A DNA stretch of 49,737 nt from Candidatus Phycosocius spiralis (GTDB lineage Bacteria > Pseudomonadota > Alphaproteobacteria > Caulobacterales > Aquidulcibacteraceae), in assembly GCF_030158815.1 (NCBI RefSeq), contig NZ_BPFZ01000017.1, forward strand, positions 1-49,737. The letters run 5' to 3'. Positions within the stretch are counted from its first letter, which is position 1. Every line of letters begins with the position of its first letter. The notes below the pieces were generated by a model, which saw nothing but the letters and a program-made list of their open reading frames with translations, made no database searches and was not told where the DNA came from. The position numbers and the translations under genes are program-made. Shown here one piece after another: positions 11,475 through 35,427 of this stretch.

Positions 11475-11525
11475 AAAAATGGAGCGGGCGATGAGGATCG
11501 AACTCACGACATCCACCTTGGCAAG
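11475..11525. repeat. Left attachment site: 3' tRNA-Gly fragment (att)
   Basis: Fifty-one bases match 35348-35398 in the same orientation with two adjacent mismatches (11496-11497 region). The shared segment is the 3' part of tRNA-Gly(GCC), including the CCA end, T arm and anticodon loop; after the shared part the sequence diverges, so no tRNA can form here. This is the duplicated target left by integration at a tRNA 3' end and marks the left border of the island. Confidence 0.9.
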
Positions 11526-13079: not shown

Positions 13080-13120
13080 CAAGTGTCGCTTGACATTCTA
13101 TGGTCTGCGGAGTATGCGAA

Positions 13121-13408
13121 ATGGAGATAGGGAGCGTTCGTCACAAAGCACTCTTGGCCTTTTTGGAAACCGGCAAGTCCAAAGGGCTGCCAGGCAACCT
13201 CGTCGAGAGGTTGCGCAGAATGCTGGTCTGGCTTGATGCAATTGATCAAGCCAATGACCTATATGTGCCTCCAAATTACGGAGCGCATCAATTGGGTGGA
13301 GATCGCGCAGGAGTTTGGTCGCTGACTGTCAGCCGGAACTGGCGTATGACTTTTCAAGTAAGCGAAAGCCTCATAATTGAGGACTTGGATTTGGAGGATT
13401 ATCACTAA
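13121..13408 (+). CDS. higB: HigB-like toxin (RelE/ParE superfamily)
   Basis: A 95-residue toxin of the HigB type, a ribosome-dependent mRNA endonuclease. Typical segments: VRHKALLAFLETGKSKGLP, ERLRRMLVWLDAIDQANDL, LGGDRAGVWSLTVSRNWRMTF and the C-terminal EDYH. I chose ATG 13121 over an earlier ATG at 13100 because family members begin with this MxxxxRHK arrangement and CGGAG at 13108-13112 lies 8 nt upstream. The toxin comes before the antitoxin, as in higBA operons; its stop overlaps the next start by one base (TAATG). It probably stabilises the island. Two TTGACA hexamers just upstream (13075-13098) may form the promoter. Confidence 0.9.
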   Translation: MEIGSVRHKALLAFLETGKSKGLPGNLVERLRRMLVWLDAIDQANDLYVPPNYGAHQLGGDRAGVWSLTVSRNWRMTFQVSESLIIEDLDLEDYH

Positions 13409-17015: not shown

Positions 17016-18680
17016 CTACCTTCCCAACCCATACCCAAGGCTAAGGTCCTGCACCACCTGCACGGCCCCACCGCGCCCAAGGCTGCTAAGGCTGACATTG
17101 TCGCCGATATTGATCGCGCTCTCGATGGGTGTCGGGACCATGACGACTTGATTGCCCATGCCAGAGGCCCGTTCGAGGAGGGCGACGCGGCCCGCGTGGA
17201 GCTCTTCGAACGAGCCAACCCGCCAGCCGTCATAGACAGTGTGACTGGGTGAGGTGAGGGTGCCCCGCCCTTGTTCGGCGAGGGTTTCGCTGAGGGCATT
17301 AATCTCTGCCCCTTGAAGCACGTCTTTAGCCCCGTCATGGAACGAGAAGACCCCGTCCTGACCGCAAGCCCCAAGCCCTGCACGAACATGGTCTTGCGCC
17401 CGTGAGGCGAGCGCCTGATCGATACGGGCATCACCGGTAAAGAAACGCTCCTCGCCATGACCGATACGGTCAAGCTCGCGGTCTAGCGCGGTAAAGGCTG
17501 TTGCCCCGAGTTGATCTTCGAGTGAGTGATAGGAGAGGCGCGAGAGATGGCCCGCCTCATCCACATGTACCCATGATCCCTTCTGAAGATGATCGACCAA
17601 GGGCGACTTGGTGTTGACCATGGTCTTGGTCTTGCTGCCGGTATCAAGGATCAGGACGCTGTTGCCGCTTGCTCGCCTCTCAAAGCCGACAACCTCACCA
17701 ACCAGTTCTTCACCCCGTTCATGAAGCTTGGTCGTACTGCGCGTCTTGGTGATATCAACCCGTGACTTCTCGGCTAACGTCTCTGTCCAGCCGCCCTTGA
17801 AGGCCATCACATTGCGGCGCACTTCTGTGGCAAGGCCGCGTGCTTCCAGCTCGCGCGCACGAGCGCGAAGCGCATTGCCCCAGATTGCTTGATCGGGATC
17901 TCGCCCGCCTAGGTCTTGGAGCCGAACTTCTCTCCGTCCATCAAGCTCTGCCGCAAGGGCCTTATCTAGCCGACTGAACCCCTTGGCATGGATATCGCGA
18001 TCAAGGGCCATACGCTCATCGAAGATCGAGCGCTCTCCGAGTTCTGCCGTTGCGCGTTCCCGTGCCTGATGGCGAAGACCATGAGAGAGATAATCGCGGG
18101 GGATACGTAACTCATGACCTTCACGGGTTCTTCCCCGCAAGATGACATGGGCATGGGGATTATCCGTGTTCCAATGATTGATAGCGACCCATTCTGTCCC
18201 AACACCAAGGTCGCTTTCCATTTGCCCTATCACATCGCGAACATATTCCTGAAGATCTTCCATGCGTGAAGCACTCTCTGGCGCAATCATAATCCGAAAG
18301 TGGCGTGGGTCTTCCTGGGTCCAGTCATCTAGCTCGCGTGACAGGCCCTCAACCTTGTCCCGATAAGCGTCATAGAACTGTCCCTGCTCATCGTCTCGAG
18401 CTGCTCCATCACGACCAAGATAAGCAGCATGGGCGGCAAGCTTCGCACTACCCGCGCGATGAGCCGAGAAGGATACCTTGATTATAACGCGTTGGCGTCT
18501 GTCCGAGCTAAACCCACCTCGAGCACCACTAACACTACCACCCCGAAAAGAACCACCCGTCCCAAGCCTTGCCCCACCAATCGCCTTACTCAAGCGGGCA
18601 CCCAAGGCCCCAGACCGAGCGTCCCCGCGTCGCCCAACAGCAAGGCGGATGCTCAACGCCTCAGATCCACGCTCTGCCAT
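17016..18680 (-). CDS. Relaxase/mobilisation nuclease (DUF3363-type, RlxS-like)
   Basis: A 554-residue relaxase that would nick the transfer origin and lead the strand into a recipient. Motif III is intact: INHWNTDNPHAHVILRG with His169, His176 and His178. A likely catalytic tyrosine is Tyr87 in AAHAAYLGRDG. The N-terminal about 60 residues are Gly/Arg-rich; the C-terminal half (LEARGLATEVRRNVMAF, VGFERRASGNSVLILDTG) matches the DUF3363 region of alphaproteobacterial relaxases. In related ICEs the next gene is the coupling protein, as here, but here the two are divergent with a 187-bp gap holding a strong hairpin. Intact, though no secretion channel is encoded in the island. Confidence 0.9.
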   Translation of the reverse strand: MAERGSEALSIRLAVGRRGDARSGALGARLSKAIGGARLGTGGSFRGGSVSGARGGFSSDRRQRVIIKVSFSAHRAGSAKLAAHAAYLGRDGAARDDEQGQFYDAYRDKVEGLSRELDDWTQEDPRHFRIMIAPESASRMEDLQEYVRDVIGQMESDLGVGTEWVAINHWNTDNPHAHVILRGRTREGHELRIPRDYLSHGLRHQARERATAELGERSIFDERMALDRDIHAKGFSRLDKALAAELDGRREVRLQDLGGRDPDQAIWGNALRARARELEARGLATEVRRNVMAFKGGWTETLAEKSRVDITKTRSTTKLHERGEELVGEVVGFERRASGNSVLILDTGSKTKTMVNTKSPLVDHLQKGSWVHVDEAGHLSRLSYHSLEDQLGATAFTALDRELDRIGHGEERFFTGDARIDQALASRAQDHVRAGLGACGQDGVFSFHDGAKDVLQGAEINALSETLAEQGRGTLTSPSHTVYDGWRVGSFEELHAGRVALLERASGMGNQVVMVPTPIESAINIGDNVSLSSLGRGGAVQVVQDLSLGYGLGR

Positions 18681-21100: not shown

Positions 21101-21464
21101 GGCGGCGATCATCGGTCGCTTTAGGTCCGCTTTGCGCCAAGGGTTGCCATTTGGGGCGGGTTGGAGGTTGCTTGGAAGCGGACATTCATGAACGGGAAAG
21201 CCTGCCGCAATTTGATCAGATCAAACTTGCAAAGGAGTTCGCGCTTGATTTGTAAGGGCTGGATGACTGTTGACCTAGCACAGGGTCGATAACTGGAAAA
21301 CACTAGTTTACCGTGGACCGAAACCGTGGGGCACGTTACGGTCAAGATCCCACTCAAGGGTCTCGTTGAATAAATTCTAAGCCAAAACCAGTTCTGGTTG
21401 ATAAATATTCATTATAGTGTCACGCGGCTGGCCTATCGTCCCCTGTAGGCTTGGGGGGCGGGAA
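21101..21464. promoter_or_regulatory. phnD upstream region
   Basis: No gene seen in the first 250 bases. The last 100 bases are AT-rich and hold TGAATAAATTC (21367-21377, inverted GAAT/ATTC) and the shared motif at 21399-21411, 54 bp before the phnD start. I looked for PhoB-type CTGTCAT repeats by eye and found none. Confidence 0.5.
21399..21411 (+). promoter_or_regulatory. Candidate RpiR operator, phnD copy
   Basis: TGATAAATATTCA. Matches 11 of 13 positions of the copy before the TonB receptor operon (25976-25988) and has the outer dyad TGA...TCA. Confidence 0.6.
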
Positions 21465-22391
21465 ATGAAGTGGCTCTATCTGACGATCAGTTTGTTGGCC
21501 TTGGCTGCGTGTTCGCAGCAATCTGATGAACAAGCCGCGAAGGATGCCTCCACCCAAGCGTTACAAGTCATCCTCATTCCGGCGGATGGTGGCACAGAAG
21601 ATGGCACTAAAGCTGACTTTAAGCCCGTCTTTGATGCGCTCAGCCAAACAAGTAAGCTCAAATTTGAATTGCGTGTGGGCCAGTCTTATAATGCTGTGGT
21701 TGAAGCCTTGTGCAGCGGATCTGCAGACATCGCTTTCGTGGGTCCTGCCGCCTATATTCAAGCTCACCAGCGCGGTTGCGCGGACTTGCTCGCGGTTGGG
21801 GTCGAAAATGGCAAGTCAGAATATTATGCCGGTTTGTTTGGACGAAGTAGCATAAGCCTAAGATCCCTTGCTGATGTGAAGGGGAAGAATGTTGCGTTTG
21901 GCGACATTAATTCGGCATCTTCCTTTATCATCCCAGTAGCCATGCTAATTCAGGCAAAGATTGATCCCGTCCAAGACCTTGCTGGCATTAAGCTCGTTGG
22001 AAGTCATGCGAATGCAATCGCAGCGCTTAACCAAGGCCAAGTTGATGTTGCGGCCTTGTCACTCGTCTCATTCGATAAGGCAGTTAATCAAGGCGCTGTC
22101 GATCCGACAAAGGTCCATCTCATCGCCCGCAGCATGGCTTTGCCCAATCCACCGATCGTGATGCGGTCGTCGCTGGCCCCCGCGCTCAAGGCCAAGCTGA
22201 AGGCCGCTTTCGATGGCCTTGCTACCGCGCCGGGTGTCACGCCTGACATGCTGGTTGGATATGGCGGGAAGCGAGTTGACCGCTATGACACGGCGTTCAG
22301 CGCAGATCACTTCAAACCCATGTCTGACATGATGGAACAAGTTACGCCAGAACTCAAAACCGCGGTCATGCACAAGGCGTCAAAGCCGTGA
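21465..22391 (+). CDS. phnD: Phosphate/phosphite/phosphonate-type ABC transporter, substrate-binding lipoprotein
   Basis: A 308-residue periplasmic binding protein of the PhnD family, with a lipoprotein signal ending LLALAAC (Cys16). Family blocks: LIPADGGTEDGTKADFKPVFDAL, SYNAVVEALCSGSADIAFVGPAAYI, and FGDINSASSFIIP. These line the pocket that binds phosphonates, phosphite or small phosphate esters. I chose ATG 21465, which starts the signal peptide and follows a GGGGGGCGGGA purine run; an upstream codon at 21417 would place 16 extra residues before the signal. First gene of phnD-phnC-phnE; its stop overlaps the GTG of phnC (GTGA). The exact ligand is not determinable. No C-P lyase (phnGHIJ) lies in the window. 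Confidence 0.9.
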   Translation: MKWLYLTISLLALAACSQQSDEQAAKDASTQALQVILIPADGGTEDGTKADFKPVFDALSQTSKLKFELRVGQSYNAVVEALCSGSADIAFVGPAAYIQAHQRGCADLLAVGVENGKSEYYAGLFGRSSISLRSLADVKGKNVAFGDINSASSFIIPVAMLIQAKIDPVQDLAGIKLVGSHANAIAALNQGQVDVAALSLVSFDKAVNQGAVDPTKVHLIARSMALPNPPIVMRSSLAPALKAKLKAAFDGLATAPGVTPDMLVGYGGKRVDRYDTAFSADHFKPMSDMMEQVTPELKTAVMHKASKP

Positions 22392-23410
22392 GGTTAGGCA
22401 GGGGTGCTCGGGTAACTTTTAACAATCTGTCAAAAGCGTTTCCAGACGGCACACAGGCATTAAGTTCGGTCAGCTTGAACATAGAAGCTGGGACGTTTTG
22501 CGTGTTGTTGGGGCCGTCTGGCTCAGGCAAGTCCACCCTATTACGCTGTATCAACGGCCTCGAAACACCCAGTGATGGCCACATCTATATCAATGATGTG
22601 GAAGTTCTTCCTACTACCCTCAAGGACTTACGACGCGGAATTGGCACGGTCCATCAGCACTTTGGCTTAGTAAATCGCGATACTGTTGCCAACAATGTTC
22701 TGGCTGGTGCCCTGCCAGAAACATCTACTTGGCGCGCGATTCTGGGTTGGTTTCCACGGAAGCTCCAAGAGCGGGTCGCGTCCTTATTGCAAAGTGCTGG
22801 CTTGGAACCCAGCCAGTTGAATCGGCGTGTGTCTGAACTATCCGGCGGCCAACAACAGCGTGTCGGGATCGCGCGGGCGTTCATGTTATCGCCGCCTTTG
22901 ATACTGGCCGATGAGCCTATTGCCAGTTTAGACCCTAAGTTAAGCCACGAGATATTGTCATTGATCGCCCGGCAAGCTGCGACAGTAGGGGCCACGGTAT
23001 TGTGCAGTCTTCATCAAGTGGACCTCGCCAAGGCTTTCGCGGATCGCATCATCGCCCTCGATCAAGGCCGGGTTGTATTTATGGTGCGCCTCAGGATCTG
23101 GCTGAGGAAAAAGTGGCGCAAATCTAAGGCTCTAAGGCACTCGAACATGACAAGGCCATCCCATCATGATGCAGACCAATCCGGCCAAAGCCAGTTCTTG
23201 GGTGTTTCGGCCATTGTTGACTGGAAAGCTTCTAATTTGGGCCTTGCTCGCCATATTGGTGCTTGCTTGGTCTGGCAAAGCAACACAGATGGATCGCGCA
23301 TTGGCTTTAACCGGGCAAGCAATCGGGGTCGGCGTTACCGGCAAGGGCGACTCGCAAGTGGCCAATGGATTTGGGCAGATAGCCCGGTCTCTATGGCCTC
23401 TACAGCTTGA
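22388..23410 (+). CDS. phnC: PhnC-type ABC ATPase with broken 3' end
   Basis: ATP-binding subunit of the phosphonate-type transporter: Walker [10 protein letters not shown], signature [14 protein letters not shown], Walker [14 protein letters not shown] and the switch histidine in CSLHQVD are intact, so the ATPase core (about 230 residues) is complete. The 3' end is odd. After GRVVF at 23080 the frame runs through unrelated sequence to 23410. Restoring one base there gives [15 protein letters not shown], then TAA at 23125-23127 where an IYG continuation is expected, then [13 protein letters not shown] ending at TGA 23167-23169, which would overlap the phnE ATG by ATGA. So a 1-nt deletion and possibly a nonsense change alter only the last about 30 residues. 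The foreign tail may or may not disturb function. Confidence 0.85.
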
Positions 23411-24176
23411 GACGCGCACCCCAATTGCCCAGATCGAGCATTTTCGAGCCGATCGCTTGCCGCCTTTTAGTCGGGTTGAACATCGAAAGAGTACTACCCA
23501 GTCGCTTGATCCTTCCACCGGTAAGTATGTTAAGACCACCCAATCCGCTTCCGAGCTTGTGGTGCCTTATGGCTATGTTGTTACGGTTCTGGGAAAGTTG
23601 ATCGAAACGCTTCAAATCGCCTTGTGGGGAACAATTCTGTCCTTGCTGATTTCTATCCCGCTCGGCTTCTTCGGCGCACGGAACCTCATGGGTGATGGGA
23701 TCGTTGTCGCGGCTGCGCGTACTTTTGTCAGCTTCTTTCGCGCTGTACCCGAATTGGTCAGCGCTTTGTTCCTAGTCGTTGCCTATGGTTTTGGGCCGAT
23801 TGCGGGGGTGATCGCATTAGGTCTCCATGGTGCTGGCTTTCTCGGCAAGTTTTTTGCCGACGATAGCGAGAATGCAGACCCAAAGCCGCAGGAGGCCTTG
23901 CGGGCACTGGGTGCCAATCGATTGAAGCTTGCGCGTTATGCTGTGCTGCCCCAAGTCATGCCGCAATTCACGGCCTATACGCTGTATATCTTAGATCGAA
24001 ATATCCGCATGGCCACGGTTATTGGCCTGGTGGGGGCAGGTGGCATAGGTCAGGAACTAAAGGGACGGTTCGATCTTTATGCTTATGGGCATGTGGCAAC
24101 CATTTTAATTGCCATCTTTCTTATGGTGCTCCTTATCGACCATCTGTCAGCCAAATTACGCCGAAAACTATTGTGA
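23166..24176 (+). CDS. phnE: PhnE-type ABC transporter permease
   Basis: A 336-residue inner-membrane permease of the phosphonate-type transporter. The first membrane helix ([16 protein letters not shown]) is followed by a long periplasmic stretch of about 85 residues, then helices from VTVLGKLIETLQIALWGTIL onward, as is typical for PhnE. The EAA-like coupling loop reads EALRALGANRLKLARYAVLPQ. The last helix (VATILIAIFLMVLLIDHL) is intact. ATG 23166 overlaps the ancestral phnC stop, implying coupling; the phnC frameshift now carries ribosomes through this start in another frame. A candidate operator overlaps the stop codon. Confidence 0.92.
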   Translation: MMQTNPAKASSWVFRPLLTGKLLIWALLAILVLAWSGKATQMDRALALTGQAIGVGVTGKGDSQVANGFGQIARSLWPLQLETRTPIAQIEHFRADRLPPFSRVEHRKSTTQSLDPSTGKYVKTTQSASELVVPYGYVVTVLGKLIETLQIALWGTILSLLISIPLGFFGARNLMGDGIVVAAARTFVSFFRAVPELVSALFLVVAYGFGPIAGVIALGLHGAGFLGKFFADDSENADPKPQEALRALGANRLKLARYAVLPQVMPQFTAYTLYILDRNIRMATVIGLVGAGGIGQELKGRFDLYAYGHVATILIAIFLMVLLIDHLSAKLRRKLL

Positions 24177-24186
24177 GATTTATTCA
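24174..24186 (+). promoter_or_regulatory. Candidate RpiR operator, rpiR copy
   Basis: TGAGATTTATTCA overlaps the phnE stop codon, 58 bp before the regulator start. It agrees with the phnD and TonB-operon copies at all outer positions, suggesting autoregulation. Confidence 0.5.
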
Positions 24187-24243
24187 ATCGTGGCACGACG
24201 TGAGTTGACATTTGATAAATCTCTCACTTGTTTGAGGTGATCC

Positions 24244-25146
24244 ATGACTGAAACGACCGAGACTGTCATGAAAGGGCGGGGGCGTAACCAAGATCAGGCG
24301 CTGGTAGAGAATATCATCGCGCGCATTCGCTTGAGCTATAAGACGATGGGCCCGATGTCCAAGACGATTGCCAACTTCATTTTGGCCCAACCCCAAAGGG
24401 TTATGGCAATGTCCGTTACGGAATTGTCCGAAACCACTGGTGCTAGCCAAGGAAGTGTTGTCAACTTTTGCCAGAACTTGGGCCTGTCGGGCTTCCAACA
24501 ACTCAAGTTATCTCTGGCCCAAGCGGTGGTGCAGCCCGTTCAATATATTCACGAAGACCTTGAACGCAGCGATGATATCGAGACGGTTTGCCGAAAGGTT
24601 TTCCATGGCGGCATCCAAGCCTTGCGCGATTCCAAGTCTGCCTTAGAGCCAAAGTCGATCGCAGCTGCTGTCCAATTGATGCGCTCGGCCAAGCGAATTG
24701 AGATTTACGGAATTGGTTCTTCGGCACCCATCGCAGAGGACGCTCATTATCGCATGCTCCGAATTGGTCTGGATGCGAAGGCGGTTACAGATAGCCATGT
24801 GCAAGCGATAAGTGCCTCGCGCACGACGCCCGACGTAGCTGTCTTGACCATCTCTCATACTGGCTCGACGCGCGAAACGGTGGTGGCAACTCAACTCGCC
24901 AAGGAGGCCGGAGCAAAAACCGTGGTTCTGACGAATTTCGGAAGGTCCCCGATACAGGCGTTCGCCGATGTGACGCTCTTTACAATGGCCTGCGAGACGC
25001 TGTTCCGGACCGAGGCCATGACAAGCCGGATCGCCCAACTCTGTGTGATCGACACATTGATCGCGGCGCTAGCGCTGGCGGATTATGAGCGCTCGATCCA
25101 AACCTTGCGCGAAACATTTGACGTCCTGTCACTGAAGCGATTCTAA
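24244..25146 (+). CDS. MurR/RpiR-family transcriptional regulator with SIS domain
   Basis: A 300-residue regulator. The N-terminal RpiR-type helix-turn-helix is clear (MSKTIANFILAQPQRVMAM, then VTELSETTGASQGSVVNFCQNLGLSGFQQLK in segments). A SIS phosphosugar-binding domain follows at about 140-270: IEIYGIGSSAPIAEDAHYRM, TISHTGSTRETV and KTVVLTNFGRSPI. SIS regulators respond to phosphorylated sugars or related esters, so the ligand is likely an organophosphate intermediate rather than free phosphate. GAGGTG before the ATG serves as the ribosome-binding site. It lies after phnE, overlaps the convergent HAD gene by 4 nt, and is the only regulator in this half of the island. Confidence 0.92.
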   Translation: MTETTETVMKGRGRNQDQALVENIIARIRLSYKTMGPMSKTIANFILAQPQRVMAMSVTELSETTGASQGSVVNFCQNLGLSGFQQLKLSLAQAVVQPVQYIHEDLERSDDIETVCRKVFHGGIQALRDSKSALEPKSIAAAVQLMRSAKRIEIYGIGSSAPIAEDAHYRMLRIGLDAKAVTDSHVQAISASRTTPDVAVLTISHTGSTRETVVATQLAKEAGAKTVVLTNFGRSPIQAFADVTLFTMACETLFRTEAMTSRIAQLCVIDTLIAALALADYERSIQTLRETFDVLSLKRF

Positions 25147-25913
25147 CACAAATCAGCCAATCTCAGACTGGAGCCTGGTCTAACCAAGATCGATGCTATA
25201 TCGAGCCGCTTTGCGCCAATAATGTCAGTTTGCGGGTTGTCACCAATCATAACGGCTTGGTTGGTATCAATGCCTAAGGCCAAGCACGCCTGCTCGAACA
25301 GCTTAGCACTTGGCTTGCCAATCACTTCCATCTTGAAGGCCTGTTCAGGGACACAAGCTTGAAAAGCGGCTAGTAGCGCACCGGTTTCGGGTATAACTAA
25401 ACCAGCATGGCCAGGATGGGTCAGATCCGGATTTGAAACAATCAAATGGGCGCCATTAAGCAAAGCATTTACGCCCAGATGAAGGCTCTCATAACTAAAT
25501 CGTGTGTCGCGCAACAGAACAATTATTTCTGGGTCGCACTTCACCTGGACCACACCCAGATCTCGTGCCAAGGCTTTCATGGGCAGACTTCCAAAGACAA
25601 TAGTAGGTCGCTTTAATTCTGCGGCACGAACCAAGGCCTGATGACCGGCTAAGATGATACGGTCGATCGGAAAGGTGACGCCTGCTTGTGCGAGGATGCG
25701 ATGGATATCGCGCGGTCTGATCGTCGAGCTATTGGACACAATGGCTATTCGCTCTTGAAACCGAGAGAGAAACTTTAGGCCGTCGGCGTGGGGAACATCG
25801 CCAATTGAAACACACCCGTCCCAGTCCAGCAAAATTCCGCTGCCACCGTCAAGGATTGTGCGTGCTTGATTGCGGTCGGCTATCCCGGCCGCTGTTACTA
25901 TCAATTGGCTCAA
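25143..25913 (-). CDS. HAD-superfamily phosphatase, HAD-IIA (NagD-like)
   Basis: A 256-residue HAD hydrolase. Motif I is LLDWDGC with Asp30 and Asp32 (Trp replaces the common Leu), motif II SNSS, the motif III lysine in GKPSAKLF, and motif IV GDNPQTDI. A C2 cap lies between motifs II and III, as in NagD, AraL and phosphoglycolate phosphatases, which remove phosphate from small sugar or alcohol phosphates in the cytoplasm. The start appears to be TTG 25913, with GGAG 7 nt upstream. It is convergent with the RpiR gene and divergent from the TonB operon, sharing the operator region. I infer that it dephosphorylates a compound imported by the transporter. Confidence 0.85.
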   Translation of the reverse strand: MSQLIVTAAGIADRNQARTILDGGSGILLDWDGCVSIGDVPHADGLKFLSRFQERIAIVSNSSTIRPRDIHRILAQAGVTFPIDRIILAGHQALVRAAELKRPTIVFGSLPMKALARDLGVVQVKCDPEIIVLLRDTRFSYESLHLGVNALLNGAHLIVSNPDLTHPGHAGLVIPETGALLAAFQACVPEQAFKMEVIGKPSAKLFEQACLALGIDTNQAVMIGDNPQTDIIGAKRLDIASILVRPGSSLRLADLC

Positions 25914-26147
25914 ACTCGCTCTCCATCACCATCAACGCTTTGTGGACTTATGTTCAAGCATGTTCTGTTTTGAAATGAAATATATTCATTAACCTTTCAC
26001 AAAAAATTCGTGCAAGCGTCACGCTTTCTGCATAGGTTATAGCTCTAAAGACTGAAAACGCTTGTCTTGGGGCTAAGATCGTTACGATCTCGGCCAACGC
26101 GAACTTGTGCATGAACTGAGAATATCTCAGTTATTAGAGGGGATCAA
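25914..26147. promoter_or_regulatory. Divergent promoter region, HAD gene / TonB-PhoD operon
   Basis: Besides the shared motif it holds two more perfect dyads: AGATCG-TTA-CGATCT (26076-26090) and AACTGAG-AATAT-CTCAGTT (26114-26132). The last is directly before the ribosome-binding site (GAGGGG, about 26136) of the receptor gene and would form a hairpin in the mRNA leader. Confidence 0.6.
25976..25988 (+). promoter_or_regulatory. Candidate RpiR operator, TonB-operon copy
   Basis: TGAAATATATTCA, extended as the perfect inverted repeat AATGAA-N5-TTCATT at 25974-25990. It is the most symmetrical of the three copies. Confidence 0.6.
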
Positions 26148-28484
26148 ATGATGCATCAATCAGTTTTCAAGGCTCACGGACGCTTGTTGGCAGTTCTGCT
26201 GGCGTCGACTGCACTGCCGAGCATGGCTCTCGCGCAGGTGAATACAGCCTCTGATACGCCGAAGCCCACAACCGAAACGGTTGTCGTCACCGCTGAACGC
26301 AACCGCGCCCCAGCAACCAATGTCGCCCAAGAGCTCGCGATTTATGGCACCGACGTGCAAGTTATCTCCGGAGCGACTATTGAGCAAAGTGGCGCAATCA
26401 ATTTCGCCGAAGCCGTGCAATTTTTGGTGAAAGGCGTCAACGTAGGCTACTCACCCGATGAAGGCGAATACACTATTCGTCTCGACGGCGGCGGCGACCG
26501 CGATACTTTGGTCACGCTGGATGGTGTACCTCTATATGATCGCGGACCTGTTCTCGAAAACATTTGGGGCGCAACCACAATCGACAATCATATCGTTGAG
26601 AACATCGAAGTTTTCCGCGGCGGCAACAGTCTTTATTTCGGTTCCAATGGTGGAATTGGTGTCGTTAACGTCGTGACCAAAAAGCCTGATGGCACCGTTA
26701 AAGGTGACTTTGGTGTTTCCTATGGCGCTTTCAACACGCGTGAGCTCTGGGGCAATTATAGCTTCCCAATCGATGCTGAAGGCAATCATTCCTTGATGGT
26801 ATATGGTTCCTTATTGGCGACAGATGGTCCGCGCATTTATGATCCGAACCTGTTCACGGATAACGTTGCTTTGTCTGGCGGTATTCAAGAATATCCGCTG
26901 AACAAGAACAACATCGGGGTCAAGTATCTTTGGAAAATCAATGAGAGCACGGAATTCCGCGCAAATGCGATCTATACCGAGAGCTGGTTCCAAGATGCAT
27001 TTCCATCTGGCGAGTCTTATTCGCCAAATACGCTGCGCTACCCAATCATCGACGCATCGCTGACCCACAAAGCAGGCGACAAGCTGTTGATAGAAGCTTC
27101 AGCCTATTACTCAAACCCCTTGCTTTGGAACGCAGAGCTTTACCCTGTTGTGTGCCGTATTGCCGCTGGCTGTCCGATCGCAAACCAAGCTACCGCAGCA
27201 GGGGTCGGAACACGTACTGTTCCCCGTGGTGCTTGGACTGGTGCTGTTGAGCCTGCGTTCGCGCATGGCTTTGGGACAACAAACCAATTCAAGAGCGGCT
27301 TTGTTGAGATTGGTGGAACGGTCCGCGCGACCTATAAGTTTAACGAGTACCTCGAAGTTGTCGGTGGCGTTCAATATGTCAGTTATAAAGATGACTCCGA
27401 TGCCCGCTTTGCGGTCCCCAACAATGATACCGCCACAACCGGTGTCTTTGTTGACGTCCATCCTACGCTGCCATTTAGCCCAAAGACCGGCATTTCGCTG
27501 GCCGTCAGGACGGACTTCTCAGATGCGTTTGACAGCAAGACCATCTGGAAATTCGGGATCAAACATCCGTTCATGGACAATTTCTATGTTCGCGCAAATG
27601 GCGGGACGTCTTACAGCCTGCCGCAGACCAACGAATTGTTCATCAACAATCCCCGGCCACCGACGGCGGTCAATGAGACTGGCTTTACCACAATTGGTAA
27701 TCCCGATTTGTTGCCCGAAGAAACCGAGACTTTCAATACAGCCATTGGCTACACCCACGAATTTGGCCAGTCGGTCTTGTTTATGGAACTTGGTGGTTTC
27801 AAGACTGAAGTCACAAATCGAATTTCCACAACGTCTGGCCGCCCAATCATTGTGACGAACCCAATCACTGGGCTTCAAACCCCCGTTGATACCTTCTTCA
27901 ACAACAACTTCGTGAATGAAATTCAAGGCTGGACCGCTGAAGTTGATCTAAAGATTGGCGAGCAATGGGCGTTTAATGTTGGCTATACAAACCAAGATTC
28001 AGCGCTTAGCTCTGGTTCGCGTGGCGGCCTACAGCTCAATGAGACCCCGGAGTGGTTTGCGACCGCATCACTCAACTGGACTTCCGAGGACAAGCGCCTG
28101 AAGGTTCAGCTGTTGCCTCGTATTCAGGGCGATGAGTGGTCGACCGGCGGTCCAGCGATTGCTGGGACGACCAAGGCCGCTGGTCCTGACGGCAAGGGGG
28201 CGGATACGGGTGTACCACGTTACCGGACGAACTTTGGTAATTACACCGTGGTGAATGCATCGATCACCTATTTGGCCGGTGAAAACATGCAACATCGCTT
28301 CATGTTCCGTGTCGTGAACCTCTTGGACGAAGACTACGCAGAGCGCTGGGGTTTTGGAAACAACTTCTACGGTGCTGCTTTCAACCGTGGCGAATACACC
28401 AACACCGACGATCGCTACTTTTATGGCTATCCGTTCGAAGGCAAACCGCGCAGCTTCTACGTGACCTACGCGACCAAATTCTAA
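26148..28484 (+). CDS. TonB-dependent outer-membrane receptor (first of operon)
   Basis: A 778-residue TonB-dependent transporter with a signal peptide ending SMALAQ. The plug domain follows (ETVVVTAERNR as TonB-box-like region; VTLDGVPLYDRG; VENIEVFRGGNSLYFGSNGG), then the barrel, ending in an aromatic residue (YVTYATKF). Such receptors import large or scarce ligands using proton-motive force through TonB. With PhoD and a phosphoesterase directly downstream, a phosphorylated ligand is the natural guess, but no residue shows this. It heads a four-gene operon. The transcript leader carries a hairpin and a candidate regulator site lies upstream. A 13-bp hairpin follows the stop. Confidence 0.93.
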   Translation: MMHQSVFKAHGRLLAVLLASTALPSMALAQVNTASDTPKPTTETVVVTAERNRAPATNVAQELAIYGTDVQVISGATIEQSGAINFAEAVQFLVKGVNVGYSPDEGEYTIRLDGGGDRDTLVTLDGVPLYDRGPVLENIWGATTIDNHIVENIEVFRGGNSLYFGSNGGIGVVNVVTKKPDGTVKGDFGVSYGAFNTRELWGNYSFPIDAEGNHSLMVYGSLLATDGPRIYDPNLFTDNVALSGGIQEYPLNKNNIGVKYLWKINESTEFRANAIYTESWFQDAFPSGESYSPNTLRYPIIDASLTHKAGDKLLIEASAYYSNPLLWNAELYPVVCRIAAGCPIANQATAAGVGTRTVPRGAWTGAVEPAFAHGFGTTNQFKSGFVEIGGTVRATYKFNEYLEVVGGVQYVSYKDDSDARFAVPNNDTATTGVFVDVHPTLPFSPKTGISLAVRTDFSDAFDSKTIWKFGIKHPFMDNFYVRANGGTSYSLPQTNELFINNPRPPTAVNETGFTTIGNPDLLPEETETFNTAIGYTHEFGQSVLFMELGGFKTEVTNRISTTSGRPIIVTNPITGLQTPVDTFFNNNFVNEIQGWTAEVDLKIGEQWAFNVGYTNQDSALSSGSRGGLQLNETPEWFATASLNWTSEDKRLKVQLLPRIQGDEWSTGGPAIAGTTKAAGPDGKGADTGVPRYRTNFGNYTVVNASITYLAGENMQHRFMFRVVNLLDEDYAERWGFGNNFYGAAFNRGEYTNTDDRYFYGYPFEGKPRSFYVTYATKF

Positions 28485-28495
28485 AGATCCAACAT

Positions 28496-28526
28496 TGGCC
28501 AGAGGCAGAAGTGCTGCCTCTGGCCA
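28496..28526 (+). promoter_or_regulatory. Intercistronic 13-bp hairpin
   Basis: Perfect arms TGGCCAGAGGCAG and CTGCCTCTGGCCA with a 5-nt loop, 11 bp after the receptor stop and 46 bp before the phoD start. No T-run, so it is better read as an mRNA 3'-end protector or attenuator than as a full terminator. Confidence 0.75.
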
Positions 28527-28572
28527 CTCGCTTGCCTATTCCAGCTTTGTCGAAATTCTGTTGGAGTGATTG

Positions 28573-30111
28573 ATGCTTACTCGTCGAAACACGCTCGTGG
28601 CACTAGGTGCACTGCCATTGCTAAGTGCACAAAAAGTACTTGCTGCCACAACCGTCAACCCCTTCACTCTGGGAGTCGCTTCCGGCAATCCGAAACCAGA
28701 TAGTGTTATCCTGTGGACACGTCTTGCTCCTGATCCACTCAAAGGTGGGGGCATGCCGGTCGGCCGCGCGCTAGTACGTTACAAGGTTTGCCTAGACGTG
28801 GAGATGACAAAAACCTTCCGCGAAGGGCAATTTGAAACCTCTGACTTGGATGCACACAGTGTTCACGTCTTGTTAGACGGCCTACAGCCAGGGCACGAGT
28901 TTTTCTATCAATTCATGTTCGGGGATGCAACCAGCGCGATTGGGCGGACGCGCACAACCAGCCCGATGGACGCCAGTGCAAAGCTCGCCTTAGCAAGTTG
29001 CAACGCTTATGAGAGCGGTTACTTTGCAGCTTTTGCAGACATGGCCGCTTGGACGCCAGACTGTGTCATCCATGTTGGCGACTATATTTATGAGGGCGGT
29101 ATTGGTCGGCTAGGCATGAATACGCGTTTGGTTGACGGCAAGGAATTGTCGTTCGAAACCGTCCGGCTTCACAATAGCCCAGAAACTAAATCTCTTTGGG
29201 ATTACCGAAATCGCTACGCGCTTTATAAGACCGATCCCGACCTACAGGCAGCTCATGCTGCAGCGCCGTGGATTGTCGCCATGGACGATCACGAGATCGA
29301 CAATAACTGGGCCGGAGACATACCGGAAGATCCAGACCAACAGACTTCACTAGAATTCAAAGTCCGAAAAATCGCGGCATTGAAGGCCTATTATGAACAT
29401 ATGCCGATCGAGAAGCCGCCCATGATCCAAGGGCTTGAGGCCAGCCTGCAAATGTTTGGCCTATACCGGTTTGGGCCGGCACAAGTCCATCTGCTCGACA
29501 CGCGTCAGTTTCGGTCCGACCAACCATGCGGGCAGGGGTTTCCGGGTGACACAGCGTGTGATGCGATGAATGACCCGAGCTTGACGATGACAGGCCAAGC
29601 CCAAGAAGCTTGGCTGTTTGATGCCCTGAAGCGGTCCAATGCGCCATTCAATGTGTTGGCCTCGCAAACTTGGTTTGCACCCTATCGCTATAACGCACCC
29701 CCGGAAGCTCCACGCGTGAATATGGACCAATGGGATGGTTACGGCGTGCAGCGTCAGCGGATCATTGATGCCCTTGCCAATGGCATCGCTAATCCCGTGG
29801 TCTTGAGTGGCGACTGGCATAGCGCGAGCGCAATGCGCATCCATGAGAGGCCCTATGATCCGCGCTCAAAGCGGATCGGGCATAATTTCTGCGGGACCTC
29901 GATTTCGTCCCATTGTCCTTGGGCCGGGGCTTTGGATGCCGCTAAGTCTTACAATCCCCACGTCGATTACGTCGACGGGTCCAAGCGCGGCTACATTCGA
30001 TCCACAATTGACCGCAACAATTGGACGGCGACCTATCGAACAGTCGATCAGCCAAGCAATCCAAAATCAAAGTCTAGCACTGCAATTGAGATGCGAACAC
30101 GCGATCTCTGA
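28573..30111 (+). CDS. phoD: PhoD-family alkaline phosphatase/phosphodiesterase
   Basis: A 512-residue PhoD-type metallophosphatase. The N-terminus is a twin-arginine signal (LTRRNTLVALGALPLL), as expected for a PhoD exported folded with its metals. Metal-ligand and active-site blocks are LASCNAYESGYF, HVGDYIYEGG, VAMDDHEIDNNW and VVLSGDWHSAS. The enzyme removes phosphate from mono- and diesters in the periplasm. ATG 28573 has GGAG at 28563-28566 (6-nt spacing); a TTG one codon earlier is an alternative. It lies between the receptor gene and the phosphoesterase gene (22-bp gap). It is intact and of normal length. Confidence 0.95.
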   Translation: MLTRRNTLVALGALPLLSAQKVLAATTVNPFTLGVASGNPKPDSVILWTRLAPDPLKGGGMPVGRALVRYKVCLDVEMTKTFREGQFETSDLDAHSVHVLLDGLQPGHEFFYQFMFGDATSAIGRTRTTSPMDASAKLALASCNAYESGYFAAFADMAAWTPDCVIHVGDYIYEGGIGRLGMNTRLVDGKELSFETVRLHNSPETKSLWDYRNRYALYKTDPDLQAAHAAAPWIVAMDDHEIDNNWAGDIPEDPDQQTSLEFKVRKIAALKAYYEHMPIEKPPMIQGLEASLQMFGLYRFGPAQVHLLDTRQFRSDQPCGQGFPGDTACDAMNDPSLTMTGQAQEAWLFDALKRSNAPFNVLASQTWFAPYRYNAPPEAPRVNMDQWDGYGVQRQRIIDALANGIANPVVLSGDWHSASAMRIHERPYDPRSKRIGHNFCGTSISSHCPWAGALDAAKSYNPHVDYVDGSKRGYIRSTIDRNNWTATYRTVDQPSNPKSKSSTAIEMRTRDL

Positions 30112-30133
30112 TCGCCCATTGGAGGACACAGTC

Positions 30134-32713
30134 ATGGCGAATAAACGAAAACTAGCTCGAGTTACGAGCCTTCTGGTAGCCACGTCTCTCGTGTCCTCTA
30201 ATTTTCTGGCCTTGTCTCAAGCGCAGTCGCAATCGATCGACCGGCCAGTTCGTGCCGTTGAAGATCCCGGCGTCATAACCACTCGCCAGGGGATCACACC
30301 TGCGGGCGCGCAGACGGTATTCAAAGGCCGCGTCCAAGGTGCTGCGTTTGGAAAAGATGGGACCCTTTGGGCCTTGTCGCGCAGCCATTTGTATCAGCTC
30401 AACTGGCTTGAGAATAAGACCATTTCTCAACATGCCCTCAAAGGGGTCGGCGGCATTCGTGGTATTGCAATGGACAAGGATGGCGTTCCAATTGTCAGCT
30501 ACATTGAAGCCAAGCAAGGTCAACCCGGATCTGTTGTGATTGCGCGGCCTGATGCGGGAGCAAGCCCCGGGGGCCTTGCCAAGATTGGCAGCCAGCTTGG
30601 CACTGAAAATGTTGGCTCCCCGATTGTGCATGACGGCAAGGCATTGACGCCTTTGACCTTCAACAATGGACTGGCAATTACGGATCTAGCATCTGGGCAG
30701 AGCAAGACCGTCACCGTGGGTGTTGCACCTGTGGCCGTAGCTGCTGGCGGAAATCTTGCTTATGTCGCCAATTGGGGTGGGCTAGCCGCAACTGCCGGGT
30801 TGCCCAGTGCACCAACAGGCCTAAAGCCAGGTGCCGATCTTGTTCGGATCGATGCACAGGGCATAGCGCTTCAAGGATCAATCAGCGTCGTCAACCTAAC
30901 TTCGGGAACCGTCTCTGACAATATCCCCGTCGGACGACACCCGACCGGCCTTGCCTTGGATGGGGCCAAAGGCTTGCTCTATGTGGCCAATACCAATGAT
31001 GATTCCATTTCCGTCGTTGATGTTCGAACGCGGGCGGTCACGCAAACCATTAAGTTGCAACCCTTTGCGCAAGCCGTGAAGGGTATTGCGCCTTCAGGAA
31101 TGACGCTCGATCGAGCAGGCAAGTTACTGTTCATCGCCTGCGGGGGCATTAATGCCGTTCTGATTTATGACCTCGAAGCAAACCGCATTAGCGGCTTGGT
31201 GCCAACGGGTTGGTATCCGGTTTCAGTCGCCCTCAATGGCGATGAGACCAAGATGGTGGTGGCAACACTTTTGGGCATTGGCTCGGGCCAAAATGAAGGG
31301 CCGACAAAGCGCTTCGTGCACGCCAACCGCGGCAGTGTTCATGTAATTCCCATGCCGGACGCGGCTCAGCTTGCCAGTTATTCGGCAGCCGTTTCAGAGA
31401 ACAATCGCATGGCCTATCGGGACGCGGTGGTGCCCCAGCCCAACCCACACGCGCCGCCCCGTGCGATTCCAGTTCGCTCGGGCGAGCCTTCTTTGATTGA
31501 ACACGTGGTCTACATCATCAAGGAAAATCGCACTTATGATCAAATCTTTGGTGACCTAGAGCGTGGCAATGGCGAACCAAATTTTGTAATGTTCGGGGAG
31601 GATGTGACCCCTAACCAACGCCGCTTGGCGCGCGACTTTGTCGTATTGGACAATTTTTATACAACCGGTGGCAATAGTGCCAGCGGCCACCAATGGGTCA
31701 CGCAAGGCAATGAAGTCAGCTACACTTTGTGGCCGGGTTATTCAGGACGTTCCTACCCATTTGATGGTAGCGATCCTTTGGCTTACTCTGCAGGCGGCTT
31801 CATTTGGGACTCTGTGCTTGCAAAAGGGAAGTCTGTCGCAGTCTTTGGAGAGTATGCCCCAAGCGTTTTGGAAGATAAACTTGTTGCGCGTCAGGGCTTG
31901 TTCGCGCGCTGGCAAGCTGGCGACAGCTTCGCAAATCAATGGAATACGCGTTCACCCATACCGCCACTGGACAAAGCGTTGGTCCGCAATTTTCCACCCT
32001 ATGATTTGGACGTTCCAGATGTGGTTCGTGCGCGGATCTTCCTAAACAAGCTCAAAGACTACGAAGCCACCAATGCAATGCCGCATCTGACCGTCATTTT
32101 GCTGCCAAGCGACCACACCAGTGGTACAAAGCCTGGGGCGAATACACCCAAAGCGATGGTTGCCGATAATGATCTTGCCTTAGGACAAGTTGTCGAGGGT
32201 CTCAGCAAATCCAAATTCTGGTCCAAAATGGCGATTTTTGTTGTTGAAGACGATTCGCAAAATGGGGTGGATCATGTTGATGGCCACCGAACAGTGGCTC
32301 TAGCAATTAGTCCTTACACGCGGCGCAATCACGTGGATTCAACGATGTATTCGCATCAAAGCATGCTGAAATCGATTGAGCTGATTCTTGGTTTGCCAAG
32401 CATGTCCTTGTTCAATTTGATCGCCAACGACATGCGCGCCAGCTTTACCGATACACCAGATCTGCGACCGCACACGGCTATTGTCCCTAAGCAAGATTTG
32501 CTTGAACTCAATCCACCAGTCATGGCTCTCACAGGCCCGCGAAAGGCCGGGGCGTTGGCGTCTGCGAAAATGAATTTCTCTGTCCCCGACGCTGTGCCGA
32601 CGGCAGAACTCAACCGGATCGTCTGGCATGAGATTAAAGGCTGGTCGACACCCTATCCAAAATCAAAGAACGCCACCTTCAGCCCATTCCAGCTTGATGA
32701 TGACGATGACTGA
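30134..32713 (+). CDS. Beta-propeller (YncE-like) / phosphoesterase fusion
   Basis: An 859-residue periplasmic protein with a signal peptide ending LSQAQS. Residues about 40-440 form a YncE-like beta-propeller (GRHPTGLALDGAKGLLYVAN; GWYPVSVALNGDETKM). The C-terminal half is a phosphoesterase of the phospholipase C/acid phosphatase type (PF04185-like): VVYIIKENRTYDQIFGD, DNFYTTGGNSASGHQW and VEDDSQNGVDHVDGHRT contain the metal-binding and active-site patterns. The bifunctional architecture is known in proteobacteria; the substrate is not. ATG 30134 is supported by GGAGG at 30121-30125; the open frame extends far upstream through phoD but that part is a shadow. It ends in five Asp codons whose other frame provides the start codons of the next gene. 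Confidence 0.9.
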   Translation: MANKRKLARVTSLLVATSLVSSNFLALSQAQSQSIDRPVRAVEDPGVITTRQGITPAGAQTVFKGRVQGAAFGKDGTLWALSRSHLYQLNWLENKTISQHALKGVGGIRGIAMDKDGVPIVSYIEAKQGQPGSVVIARPDAGASPGGLAKIGSQLGTENVGSPIVHDGKALTPLTFNNGLAITDLASGQSKTVTVGVAPVAVAAGGNLAYVANWGGLAATAGLPSAPTGLKPGADLVRIDAQGIALQGSISVVNLTSGTVSDNIPVGRHPTGLALDGAKGLLYVANTNDDSISVVDVRTRAVTQTIKLQPFAQAVKGIAPSGMTLDRAGKLLFIACGGINAVLIYDLEANRISGLVPTGWYPVSVALNGDETKMVVATLLGIGSGQNEGPTKRFVHANRGSVHVIPMPDAAQLASYSAAVSENNRMAYRDAVVPQPNPHAPPRAIPVRSGEPSLIEHVVYIIKENRTYDQIFGDLERGNGEPNFVMFGEDVTPNQRRLARDFVVLDNFYTTGGNSASGHQWVTQGNEVSYTLWPGYSGRSYPFDGSDPLAYSAGGFIWDSVLAKGKSVAVFGEYAPSVLEDKLVARQGLFARWQAGDSFANQWNTRSPIPPLDKALVRNFPPYDLDVPDVVRARIFLNKLKDYEATNAMPHLTVILLPSDHTSGTKPGANTPKAMVADNDLALGQVVEGLSKSKFWSKMAIFVVEDDSQNGVDHVDGHRTVALAISPYTRRNHVDSTMYSHQSMLKSIELILGLPSMSLFNLIANDMRASFTDTPDLRPHTAIVPKQDLLELNPPVMALTGPRKAGALASAKMNFSVPDAVPTAELNRIVWHEIKGWSTPYPKSKNATFSPFQLDDDDD

Positions 32714-34859
32714 AGCGAACAAAGTTTGCTTTAACCGGGCCGCCTGCGCTCTACTCTTTCCGATTCTTCTTGCGTCGCCAGCGGCGGCGGAAGAAGTTGA
32801 GACCATCATTGTTTCTGGCAGCATTCTAAAAGACAAAGCAAATCTGCCAGGGTCGGTTTTTGAAGTTTCGGCGGACGATCTAGCTCGGCTAAAGCCCATT
32901 TCTGTCTCTGATTTACTGCAAGGGGTTCCGGGAGTTCAGGTTGTCAGCGAAGATCTGTTTGGTCTCAAAGTGAATATCTCCGTGCGTGGGCTAACGCCGC
33001 GCCGATCGGCCCGCACCCTGCTGCTGGAAGATGGCATGCCGATACAGCCTGCGCCCTATTCAGAGCCTTCTGCACATTATGTCCCACCGTTCGAACGGAT
33101 TGAGCGTATCGAAGTACTCAAGGGGTCGGGCGAGATTATGTATGGCCCGCAAAGCTTGGGCGGTATGATCAATTTCATCACCAAACCTGTCCCCGACGGC
33201 TTTGAAGGTCAGATTGATGTTGCAGCCGGCACACGGAATTTCGGGTCTGGCCACCTCATGCTTGGCGCGGGGAATGAACAGGGTGGGGCCACGCTCAACA
33301 TTTTACAGAAGCAAAGCGACGGCACCAGAGATGGTCATTCAACACAGCTTAAAGATGTCGCGCTTAAGGCGGTTGTTAAACTCGGCGATCGCCGCACCTT
33401 AACGGCGCGCTTTACCAATTTTGTTGAAGATACAGCACTAACTGAGGCGGGGCTCAACGCTGCGCGCTATGCACAGAACCCTTATGCGAACCCGTTTACA
33501 GACGATCATTTCGATCTGACCCGCCGGGCAATGCAGCTCGTCTATGATGCCGGTTGGGGTGCTCATGTTAATTCGCACACACAGGTCTATGCAGCCGAAA
33601 CATTCCGCGCTTCGTATCGCCAGACGGACACGTCGACGGACGCAATGACGGCCAACCCGACAACAGGCTGTGAGGGGAGTGCGCGAACCGACTATGAGAA
33701 TTTTGCAGCGCGATGCGGCAATAAAATGCGCCCTCGAAAATTTTCCTTTTCAGGTCTTGAGACCACTTGGACTTTGCAGTCTTCCCTCTGGGGTCAAGAG
33801 ATCACCTCAATCGTCGGCGCGCGTTGGCATCACGAAGATGCGGATCGTCGTCGATATAATGGTCTAACCCCGACAGCACGTGAAACCTCACAAGGCACCT
33901 CGTTACGTGATTTGAATTTGATCCAAACTGATGCAACGGCGCTTTATGCTCAGACAACTTGGAACTACAAAAGTCTCAGCGTTAGTGCAGGGATCCGTAA
34001 CGAAGATATCCAGACGACCAACACGTCGGTTTATGCCAACTTCCTCGAGAGAAATCTTCGCGCCTCGTCGCATCAGAATATCGCACTTCCGGGCTTTGGG
34101 TTAACTTGGGAACCACAGGATTCCTTTGTTGTATTTGCCGGTGTTCATAAGGGTTTCGCGCCACCACGCCCGGACCGGGATGTTGATCCACTGGCTCCAG
34201 CAAATCAGGTCCGTCCCGAGCAAAGTACAAATTACGAGCTCGGTATGCGTCGCCGTATTGGCGATGCAACACAAGTCGAGGCGACCGCATTCTTGCTGGA
34301 TTTCAAGGAACTGATCGTCGCAGGGCCGCTGTTGGGGTTGGCCAGTGGGACGCTAATCAATGCTGGTGAGGCCACCCATGCCGGTGGTGAACTCTACTTA
34401 AAGCATGGATGGTCAGAAGGCTTGTCCCCAAATTGGAAGCCTTGGATCACCCTGTCTGGAACCTATTTAGCCAAGGCAGAATTCGACAGTAATGTGGGGG
34501 AGGGTGCAGCCAATGTGCGGGGCAACCGAATTCCTTATGCGCCTAAATGGCTTGGCGACTTGTCTGTCGGCCTGACAGGAACAAATGGGCTTGGTGTCAC
34601 TCTTGGTGTTCATTATGTCGGCGAACAATTTTCGGATGCTCGTAATACAATTGCCCAATCTGCCGACGGCACGCTCGGATTGGTGCCTTTTTATAGTATC
34701 CTCAATCTGGGTCTGAGGTTTCGACCCGAAAGGGTGAATTGGGACATCTATCTTAGTGCCCACAATGTGCTCGACCGTCGCTATCTAACGACCCGCACGG
34801 ACGGCATGTTTGCAGGACCTCCGCGCCAAGTGTTGATCGGGTTTCGCAGGCGACTTTGA
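32697..34859 (+). CDS. TonB-dependent receptor, FecA-like (last of operon)
   Basis: About 720 residues from ATG 32697; ATG 32700 and ATG 32706 are equally placed alternatives. The signal peptide ends ASPAAAEE. The plug (ETIIVSGSILKDKANLPGSV; LLLEDGMPIQPAPYSEPSA; IERIEVLKGSGEIMYGPQSLGG) and the barrel ending QVLIGFRRRL are typical of FecA/siderophore-like receptors. It overlaps the phosphoesterase gene by 17 nt, so translation is probably coupled. It differs clearly from the first receptor, so the operon may handle two ligands or sizes of ligand; an iron complex is also possible. Confidence 0.92.
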   Translation: MMTMTEANKVCFNRAACALLFPILLASPAAAEEVETIIVSGSILKDKANLPGSVFEVSADDLARLKPISVSDLLQGVPGVQVVSEDLFGLKVNISVRGLTPRRSARTLLLEDGMPIQPAPYSEPSAHYVPPFERIERIEVLKGSGEIMYGPQSLGGMINFITKPVPDGFEGQIDVAAGTRNFGSGHLMLGAGNEQGGATLNILQKQSDGTRDGHSTQLKDVALKAVVKLGDRRTLTARFTNFVEDTALTEAGLNAARYAQNPYANPFTDDHFDLTRRAMQLVYDAGWGAHVNSHTQVYAAETFRASYRQTDTSTDAMTANPTTGCEGSARTDYENFAARCGNKMRPRKFSFSGLETTWTLQSSLWGQEITSIVGARWHHEDADRRRYNGLTPTARETSQGTSLRDLNLIQTDATALYAQTTWNYKSLSVSAGIRNEDIQTTNTSVYANFLERNLRASSHQNIALPGFGLTWEPQDSFVVFAGVHKGFAPPRPDRDVDPLAPANQVRPEQSTNYELGMRRRIGDATQVEATAFLLDFKELIVAGPLLGLASGTLINAGEATHAGGELYLKHGWSEGLSPNWKPWITLSGTYLAKAEFDSNVGEGAANVRGNRIPYAPKWLGDLSVGLTGTNGLGVTLGVHYVGEQFSDARNTIAQSADGTLGLVPFYSILNLGLRFRPERVNWDIYLSAHNVLDRRYLTTRTDGMFAGPPRQVLIGFRRRL

Positions 34860-35347: not shown

Positions 35348-35398
35348 AAAAATGGAGCGGGCGATGAGATTCGAACTCACGACATCCACCTTGGCAAG
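35348..35398. repeat. Right attachment site, within tRNA-Gly
   Basis: The second copy of the 51-bp direct repeat. It covers the 3' half of the intact tRNA-Gly gene and five bases beyond its CCA end. Confidence 0.9.
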
Positions 35399-35427
35399 GT
35401 GGCGCTCTACCCCTGAGCTACGCCCGC
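35353..35427 (-). tRNA. tRNA-Gly (anticodon GCC)
   Basis: Complete cloverleaf on the minus strand, 75 nt with encoded CCA. Acceptor arms GCGGGCG/CGCCCGC, D stem GCTC/GAGC, anticodon stem CCACC/GGTGG with loop TTGCCAA, T arm GTGAG-TTCGAAT-CTCAT. The anticodon is GCC. It is the integration target of the island, which lies on its 3' side and restores its 3' half. Confidence 0.97.

Follow-up and report, generated by a model that had tools for sequence, protein, structure and literature searches.

A mobile phosphorus-scavenging module of a freshwater bacterium that is probably controlled by both PhoB and an RpiR-family regulator

Importers of the PhnDCE type and their substrate-binding proteins are known from several phosphorus acquisition systems, which are summarized here as described in the available portions of their reports. 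GpxB, a glycerol-1/3-phosphate transporter of the PhnT family with tail residues Thr247 and Arg223, is a PhnD-type ATP-binding cassette importer for a lipid-derived phosphomonoester (PMC12718374). PtxB binds phosphite, for which a capping tyrosine is important (PMC5700983). In M. smegmatis, PhnDCE is induced by phosphate limitation and stands next to a divergent local repressor, PhnF (PMC7866108). In Caulobacter crescentus, TonB receptors, phosphatases, a phosphodiesterase and phospholipase C are under the control of PhoB (PMC11208175), and a study of phospholipid headgroup use in Phaeobacter discussed an RpiR gene and the Pho regulon (PMC10132767). Here, we analyzed a 49.7-kb contig (49,737 nucleotides of NZ_BPFZ01000017.1, termed the window throughout) of the 2.5-Mb genome of the Caulobacterales host Candidatus Phycosocius spiralis. 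Within a genomic island, this contig carries phnDCE together with genes for an RpiR-family regulator (RpiR), a HAD-IIA phosphatase, two TonB-dependent receptors and two phosphoesterases. We propose with modest confidence that this module is a mobile, two-key phosphorus-scavenging regulon answering to PhoB and to RpiR.

The module was found to differ from each of the described systems. The cap residue Thr247 of GpxB corresponds to Pro230 of the window PhnD by chained alignment, the two proteins share 17% identity (Foldseek rank 42), and the available text mentions no RpiR, HAD or phospholipase C neighbors for GpxB (PMC12718374). PtxB proteins are the closest solved relatives and their phosphate-contacting motif is kept (PMC5700983), whereas the window PhnD is without the capping tyrosine. 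The M. smegmatis system has a GntR instead of an RpiR repressor, and the available part of its report describes no exoenzyme, TonB receptor or shared Pho half-site (PMC7866108). Neither RpiR nor PhnD is named in the available main text on the C. crescentus regulon (PMC11208175). In Phaeobacter, as far as its report is available, RpiR is encoded beside an ethanolamine tripartite ATP-independent periplasmic (TRAP) transporter cluster and headgroup nitrogen is imported after removal of phosphate (PMC10132767). Among the papers listed from open-licence PMC text, none appeared in its accessible portions to describe RpiR, HAD and PhnDCE with a secreted phosphodiesterase, and none joined RpiR, PhnDCE and phospholipase C.

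All genes named for the module in the initial annotation, which was made from the letters alone, were present and contiguous, and each protein matched one or more Pfam domains at scores over the gathering threshold (the propeller by TIGR02276):

21465 to 22391, forward strand: PhnD substrate-binding protein (PF12974; PtxB-like fold) by Pfam and predicted structure; the start is a chosen ATG
22388 to 23085, forward strand: PhnC ATPase by domain match; the frame continues to 23410
23166 to 24176, forward strand: PhnE permease, TIGR01097 over cut-off
24244 to 25146, forward strand: MurR/RpiR-family regulator, HTH_6 and SIS domains both over gathering scores
25143 to 25913, reverse strand (opposite to its neighbors): HAD-IIA phosphatase with DxDG, GKP and GDxxxxD motifs
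26148 to 28484, forward strand: TonB-dependent receptor 1 by Pfam
28570 to 30111, forward strand: PhoD alkaline phosphatase/phosphodiesterase by Pfam; twin-arginine-like start, the signal judged by eye
30134 to 32713, forward strand: YVTN propeller fused to a PF04185 phosphoesterase, by Pfam and TIGR02276
32697 to 34859, forward strand: TonB-dependent receptor 2 by Pfam

The NCBI equivalog models served as a stricter test; among the module proteins tested PhnE alone passed, PhnC fell slightly short (250 versus 266) and PhnD and PhoD fell well short. The ATPase domain of PhnC is complete, and its last residues are out of frame relative to relatives in this assembly. Because of this shift in the last codons, the reading frame, which diverges from relatives near 23083, continues to 23410 and overlaps phnE; either an assembly error or a recent lesion would account for it. 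The nearest solved phosphoesterases to the propeller fusion are the acid phosphatase 2d1g and the phospholipase C 9gy2. TonB receptor 1 has relatives in the PDB, among them the colicin I receptor and PirA, and these point to no particular ligand. The absence of C-P lyase was confirmed, as PhnJ (PF06007) had no match in the genome while the E. coli control scored positive, and PhnDCE is thus not of the C-P lyase-linked kind. The claim that PhoBR is missing did not hold for PhoB, which is encoded elsewhere in the genome (350 bits versus an equivalog cut-off of 296).

The distribution of the gene set was examined in 85 loci, comprised of the best 80 of 100 relatives of one RpiR query and seven loci from a genome search, less two duplicates. 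Prior to counting, L026 and L028 (duplicates of L019 and L020) and the short fragments L001-L018 were left out, and genes were called with a codon-scored caller and clustered by family. By this approach, HAD was found in 64 loci, PhnE in 60, a secreted phospholipase in 58, PhnD in 57, TonB receptor 1 in 39, PhoD in 18, the propeller-phosphoesterase in 4 and TonB receptor 2 in 3; the last two are accessory components. RpiR, HAD, PhnD and PhnE occur together in 50 of the 85 loci, and RpiR, HAD and PhnDCE recur in Alpha- and Betaproteobacteria alike. A secreted phosphodiesterase is encoded nearby in 47 of these 50 loci and is absent from the stretch examined in the other three; phosphocholine-specific phospholipase C was detected in 33, PhoD in 15 and the propeller-phosphoesterase in 4, with overlaps. 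The partner phospholipase is assigned by TIGR03396, which was matched by 58 of 58 members, the first at 950 bits. Thus, the window holds one version, with PhoD and the propeller enzyme and without phospholipase C, of a wider system. The earlier statement that no named system has this set stands for the exact set only, as RpiR, HAD and PhnDCE with a secreted phosphodiesterase are widespread. Phospholipase C is often followed, chiefly in Variovorax and related taxa, by a repeat-rich protein that on visual inspection resembles a YadA-type head (cluster 9, found in 16 loci; e.g., L060, L063, L069, L070 and L086).

A dyad search over the upstream regions of these loci ranked AATGA-N7-TCATT first, with matches in 34 of 303 regions in 21 loci and in none of 765 controls. 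The consensus WWTGA-N7-TCAWW was then counted in its exact form, with regions between divergent genes scored for both genes. It was found upstream of HAD (44 of 64), TonB receptor 1 (20 of 39) and PhnD (19 of 57), compared to 8 of 766 control regions from other genes of the same loci, and it lies near system genes in 54 of the 85 loci. Pho-box-like repeats with up to three mismatches were likewise detected upstream of PhnD (29/57), HAD (27/64) and TonB receptor 1 (11/39), with 23/766 in the controls. The two elements stand at a fixed distance. Of the 68 exact sites, 34 have a Pho half-site at exactly +11 from the palindrome half-site, compared to 0-2 at each of 15 other offsets; this signal occurs in 15 of 23 genus groups (labels taken from record titles), with at most 2 at other offsets. 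When one mismatch was allowed, 68 of 177 sites had the +11 half-site, compared to no more than 6 at any other of 18 offsets. The composite of palindrome right half and +11 Pho half-site, with one mismatch, occurs in 58 of the 85 loci, and in 48 of those 58 the TA of a -10 element is found at +11/12. In relatives, the palindrome is accompanied by 11-bp repeats of the CTGTCAT type placed some 10 bp ahead of a -10, which is the arrangement of PhoB regulon sites. By these sequence patterns, palindrome and Pho box are one structure, in which the palindrome right half doubles as the first Pho half-site. Six loci (L059, L062, L065, L080, L090 and L091) have a pair of palindromes upstream of HAD, spaced 32-33 bp or roughly three helical turns from each other; as defined here, only one of each pair has a Pho half-site, and the arrangement may allow cooperative or looped RpiR binding.

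The composite was also searched for outside the sample from which it was derived. The exact pattern was found at 15 places in 14 of 61 related genomes, compared to 2 places for the reversed pattern. In two of these genomes (G060 and G064), the single exact match lies about 90 bp upstream of a phosphocholine-specific phospholipase C gene elsewhere in the genome, the RpiR locus itself being without phospholipase C within the 19.5 kb examined. A stricter pattern gave 27 matches over 398 Caulobacterales genomes versus 6 for its reversed form; of the 27, phospholipase C accounts for 10, the region between HAD and TonB receptor 1 for 2 and the vicinity of RpiR for 1, and a further match is some 1.26 kb away from PhnD. 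RpiR (E ≤1e-80) is encoded in 40 of these 398 genomes and phospholipase C (E ≤1e-200) in 57. Among genomes encoding phospholipase C, 10 of the 14 that also encode RpiR have the strict composite upstream of the phospholipase C gene, compared to 0 of the 43 that do not (Fisher 2.3e-8), and the palindrome, with up to one mismatch, was detected at 12 of 13 phospholipase loci with RpiR and 0 of 17 without (1.5e-7; 30 phospholipase loci among the 69 matches listed), values that overstate independence because 10 of the 14 genomes with both genes belong to one genus. Within genus f3g25, the palindrome is at phospholipase C in 2 of 2 cases with RpiR and in 0 of 3 without. By position, spacing and out-of-sample matches, a composite operator in the relatives is strongly supported. 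A plain Pho operon, in which the palindrome is that of another regulator and overlaps the Pho box incidentally, is compatible with the predicted status of RpiR binding and with the loci that have no exact palindrome; we regard it as very improbable, since the palindrome at phospholipase C tracks RpiR among the matches listed, also within f3g25.

In the window, the scan with up to one mismatch gave two composites in 49.7 kb, both in control regions of the module, and none in the reversed sequence:

21397 to 21423, forward strand: composite site 1, before phnD; RpiR-type palindrome with one mismatch, its right half 11 bp from the Pho half-site GTGTCAC, by motif scan
21433 to 21438, forward strand: -10-like CTATCG, with CTA at +10 from the Pho half-site, counted on the sequence
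25974 to 26000, forward strand: composite site 2, between HAD and TonB receptor 1; palindrome without mismatch, its right half 11 bp from the Pho half-site CTTTCAC, by motif scan
26017 to 26036, forward strand: further Pho-like half-site CGTCAC (22 bp past CTTTCAC) and -10-like CATAGG, read by eye

Site 2 is the only exact composite found in the genome of the window, and its -10 is spaced, by eye, from the further half-site CGTCAC. The congener G007 has both composites as well, and G008 has them with a single mismatch in each. The initial annotation had seen no evident Pho box; the repeats are indeed degenerate, and they overlap the palindromes at both control regions. For the window alone, a composite operator is more weakly supported.

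Several observations weigh against a regulon of this kind. The exact palindrome is missing near system genes in 31 of the 85 loci, and 27 of the 85 have no composite even with one mismatch; four module loci of family f2 have the palindrome without the strict composite. It is also rare before phospholipase C (4/58) and RpiR (9/85) and was found in 0 of 18 cases before PhoD, a scarcity that fits transcription in operons. Sampling was skewed, as 19 of the 85 loci are from Variovorax and the best 80 of 100 relatives came from a single query. Of the 27 Caulobacterales matches, 13 are by no system gene, and the genome of the window has 10 further one-mismatch composite matches versus 3 control matches. 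The overlapping Pho box at both window sites is off consensus at 5 of 14 positions, with half-site and -10 spacing that fit, and at four mismatches 110 of 766 controls already match; for these reasons, the Pho boxes of the window rest on their position and on the relatives. In some Asticcacaulis loci, RpiR is accompanied by a TonB-dependent receptor, PhoD and phospholipase C, and neither HAD nor PhnDCE is encoded within the region examined. The best TIGR03396 score in the genome of the window is 18.7 bits versus a cut-off of 580. The kinship of PhnD to phosphite binders, described below, is a further such point.

We infer that a PhoB- and RpiR-dependent regulon would operate as follows. Phospholipids or similar phosphodiesters would be cut by secreted phosphodiesterases, namely PhoD and the propeller-phosphoesterase in this module and phosphocholine-specific phospholipase C in the majority of relatives, and TonB receptor 1 would carry substrate or product across the outer membrane. 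PhnDCE would import a small phosphomonoester, from which the cytoplasmic HAD enzyme would liberate phosphate. Transcription would require phosphorylated PhoB at the Pho box about 10 bp before the -10. Since the palindrome right half is also the first Pho half-site, RpiR on the palindrome would block PhoB until its SIS domain binds the imported phospho-compound. The initial annotation had likewise proposed import and dephosphorylation of an organophosphate, for which the contiguous import and phosphatase genes are suited. Its switch by an organophosphate rather than by phosphate starvation stands in part: the local RpiR is tied to a conserved operator, and the exclusion of phosphate starvation is unsupported because in many relatives, and degenerately in the window, the palindrome has a half-site in common with a Pho box at fixed spacing and is followed by a PhoB-type -10. 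That exclusion was most likely wrong.

The large phosphorylated ligand of the same annotation, imported by two TonB receptors and dephosphorylated stepwise independently of PhoB, would agree with the two receptors, the two secreted phosphoesterases and the degenerate Pho boxes of the window. We consider it improbable, given the way in which Pho half-site and -10 are spaced from the palindrome in related loci, the accessory status of receptor 2 and the propeller enzyme, and the small ligands taken by known PhnD-type proteins in the available account (PMC12718374). Phosphocholine-specific phospholipase C is the commonest enzyme partner. Because this enzyme would yield a small phosphomonoester, a large ligand is not required.

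PhnD, for which a structure was predicted well (pLDDT 91.6), has the PtxB phosphite binders as its nearest solved relatives (E 1.2e-29; best Foldseek TMt 0.90). Across 29 aligned members, no variation was seen in its phosphate-contacting Ser-x-Ser, His and Tyr, and the position of the PtxB capping tyrosine is an invariant proline (Pro230) in 29 of 29, which speaks against phosphite and would accommodate a larger group. No phosphite dehydrogenase is encoded among the module genes, the rest of the genome not having been searched for one. Uptake of phosphonate or phosphite, as the PhnD family and the PtxB kinship might suggest, is highly unlikely when set against the invariant proline, the genome without PhnJ and the phosphodiesterase partners. 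The phospholipase partner suggests phosphocholine or phosphoethanolamine as the ligand, which we advance as a tentative possibility that we would sooner doubt than assert. By analogy with GpxB (PMC12718374) the ligand could be glycerol phosphate, and by analogy with M. smegmatis (PMC7866108) it could be phosphate, as far as these sources are available.

Phosphate as the cargo would leave the regulon as proposed, with PhnDCE carrying phosphate freed outside by PhoD and the phosphoesterase and with HAD serving only to remove the RpiR signal. PhoD could free phosphate outside the cell, and there is precedent in the accessible text of two reports: in M. smegmatis, phosphate is taken up through PhnDCE under the control of the local GntR repressor PhnF (PMC7866108), and PhnD1 of picocyanobacteria has been proposed to transport phosphate, perhaps as part of phospholipid recycling (PMC10284923). 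We judge phosphate import to be unlikely, in that a HAD phosphatase with intact motifs (64 of 64 relatives) lies beside the regulator in 64 of the 85 loci and an RpiR/SIS sensor suggests, from knowledge of the family, an organic phosphate in the cytoplasm. In its fullest form, our proposal is that PhnDCE may be a previously unrecognized importer of headgroup phosphomonoesters (phosphocholine or phosphoethanolamine) working with a HAD-IIA headgroup phosphatase, under an AND gate in which PhoB and RpiR read one half-site, from Caulobacterales to Burkholderiales; in this combination, it is held only tentatively.

The module lies in a 23.9-kb island that is bounded at both ends by a 51-bp direct repeat (96% identity) and has an integrase inside its left end, as the initial annotation had proposed in calling it island-borne:

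11475 to 11525, no strand assigned: left island boundary, 51-bp copy of the tRNA-Gly end (attachment-site-like, att-like), a direct repeat 96% identical to 35348-35398
11769 to 13079, forward strand: tyrosine integrase (PF00589 with PF13356 arm domain) by domain match
17016 to 18680, reverse strand: RlxS-like relaxase, 202 bits, under the curated cut-off of 850
35348 to 35427, reverse strand: tRNA-Gly (GCC) at 35353-35427 with the right island boundary at 35348-35398, the repeat overlapping the tRNA end

The integrase adjoins att-like repeats in a tRNA gene, as expected of a tRNA-targeted integrative island, and the island location and gene set are solid. DNA flanking the tRNA-Gly is present in 9 of 9 genomes of the genus, and the HAD gene in just 3 of the 9, namely that of the window, G007 and G008. 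In G007 the module is at the same tRNA-Gly site; in G008 module and site are on different contigs. A further congener (G006) has part of the tRNA-Gly end repeated next to its intact tRNA-Gly (L117, 5203-5343), which suggests use of the same site by other elements in congeners. The window RpiR shares 98% identity with its counterpart in Aquidulcibacter paucihalophilus TH1-2, and related RpiR genes were found on 7 plasmid records. On the one Asticcacaulis plasmid examined, RpiR, TonB receptor, PhoD and phospholipase C are consecutive. Megablast of 21417-33400, most of the module, gave zero matches to plasmids. The island also encodes, at 14529-15782, an ATPase with AAA_14/DUF4143 that strongly matches the PADLOC candidate defence family PDC-S01 (517 bits) and, directly past the integrase at 13100-13408, a small RelE-like protein under its family cut-off (22.5 versus 27.9 bits).

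If correct, control by both PhoB and RpiR would explain how costly scavenging of lipid phosphorus is limited to times when phosphate is low and substrate is present. The DNA signature would predict members of the regulon, including phospholipase C genes far from the regulator, and a role is suggested for widespread PhnDCE transporters that family models name phosphonate importers.

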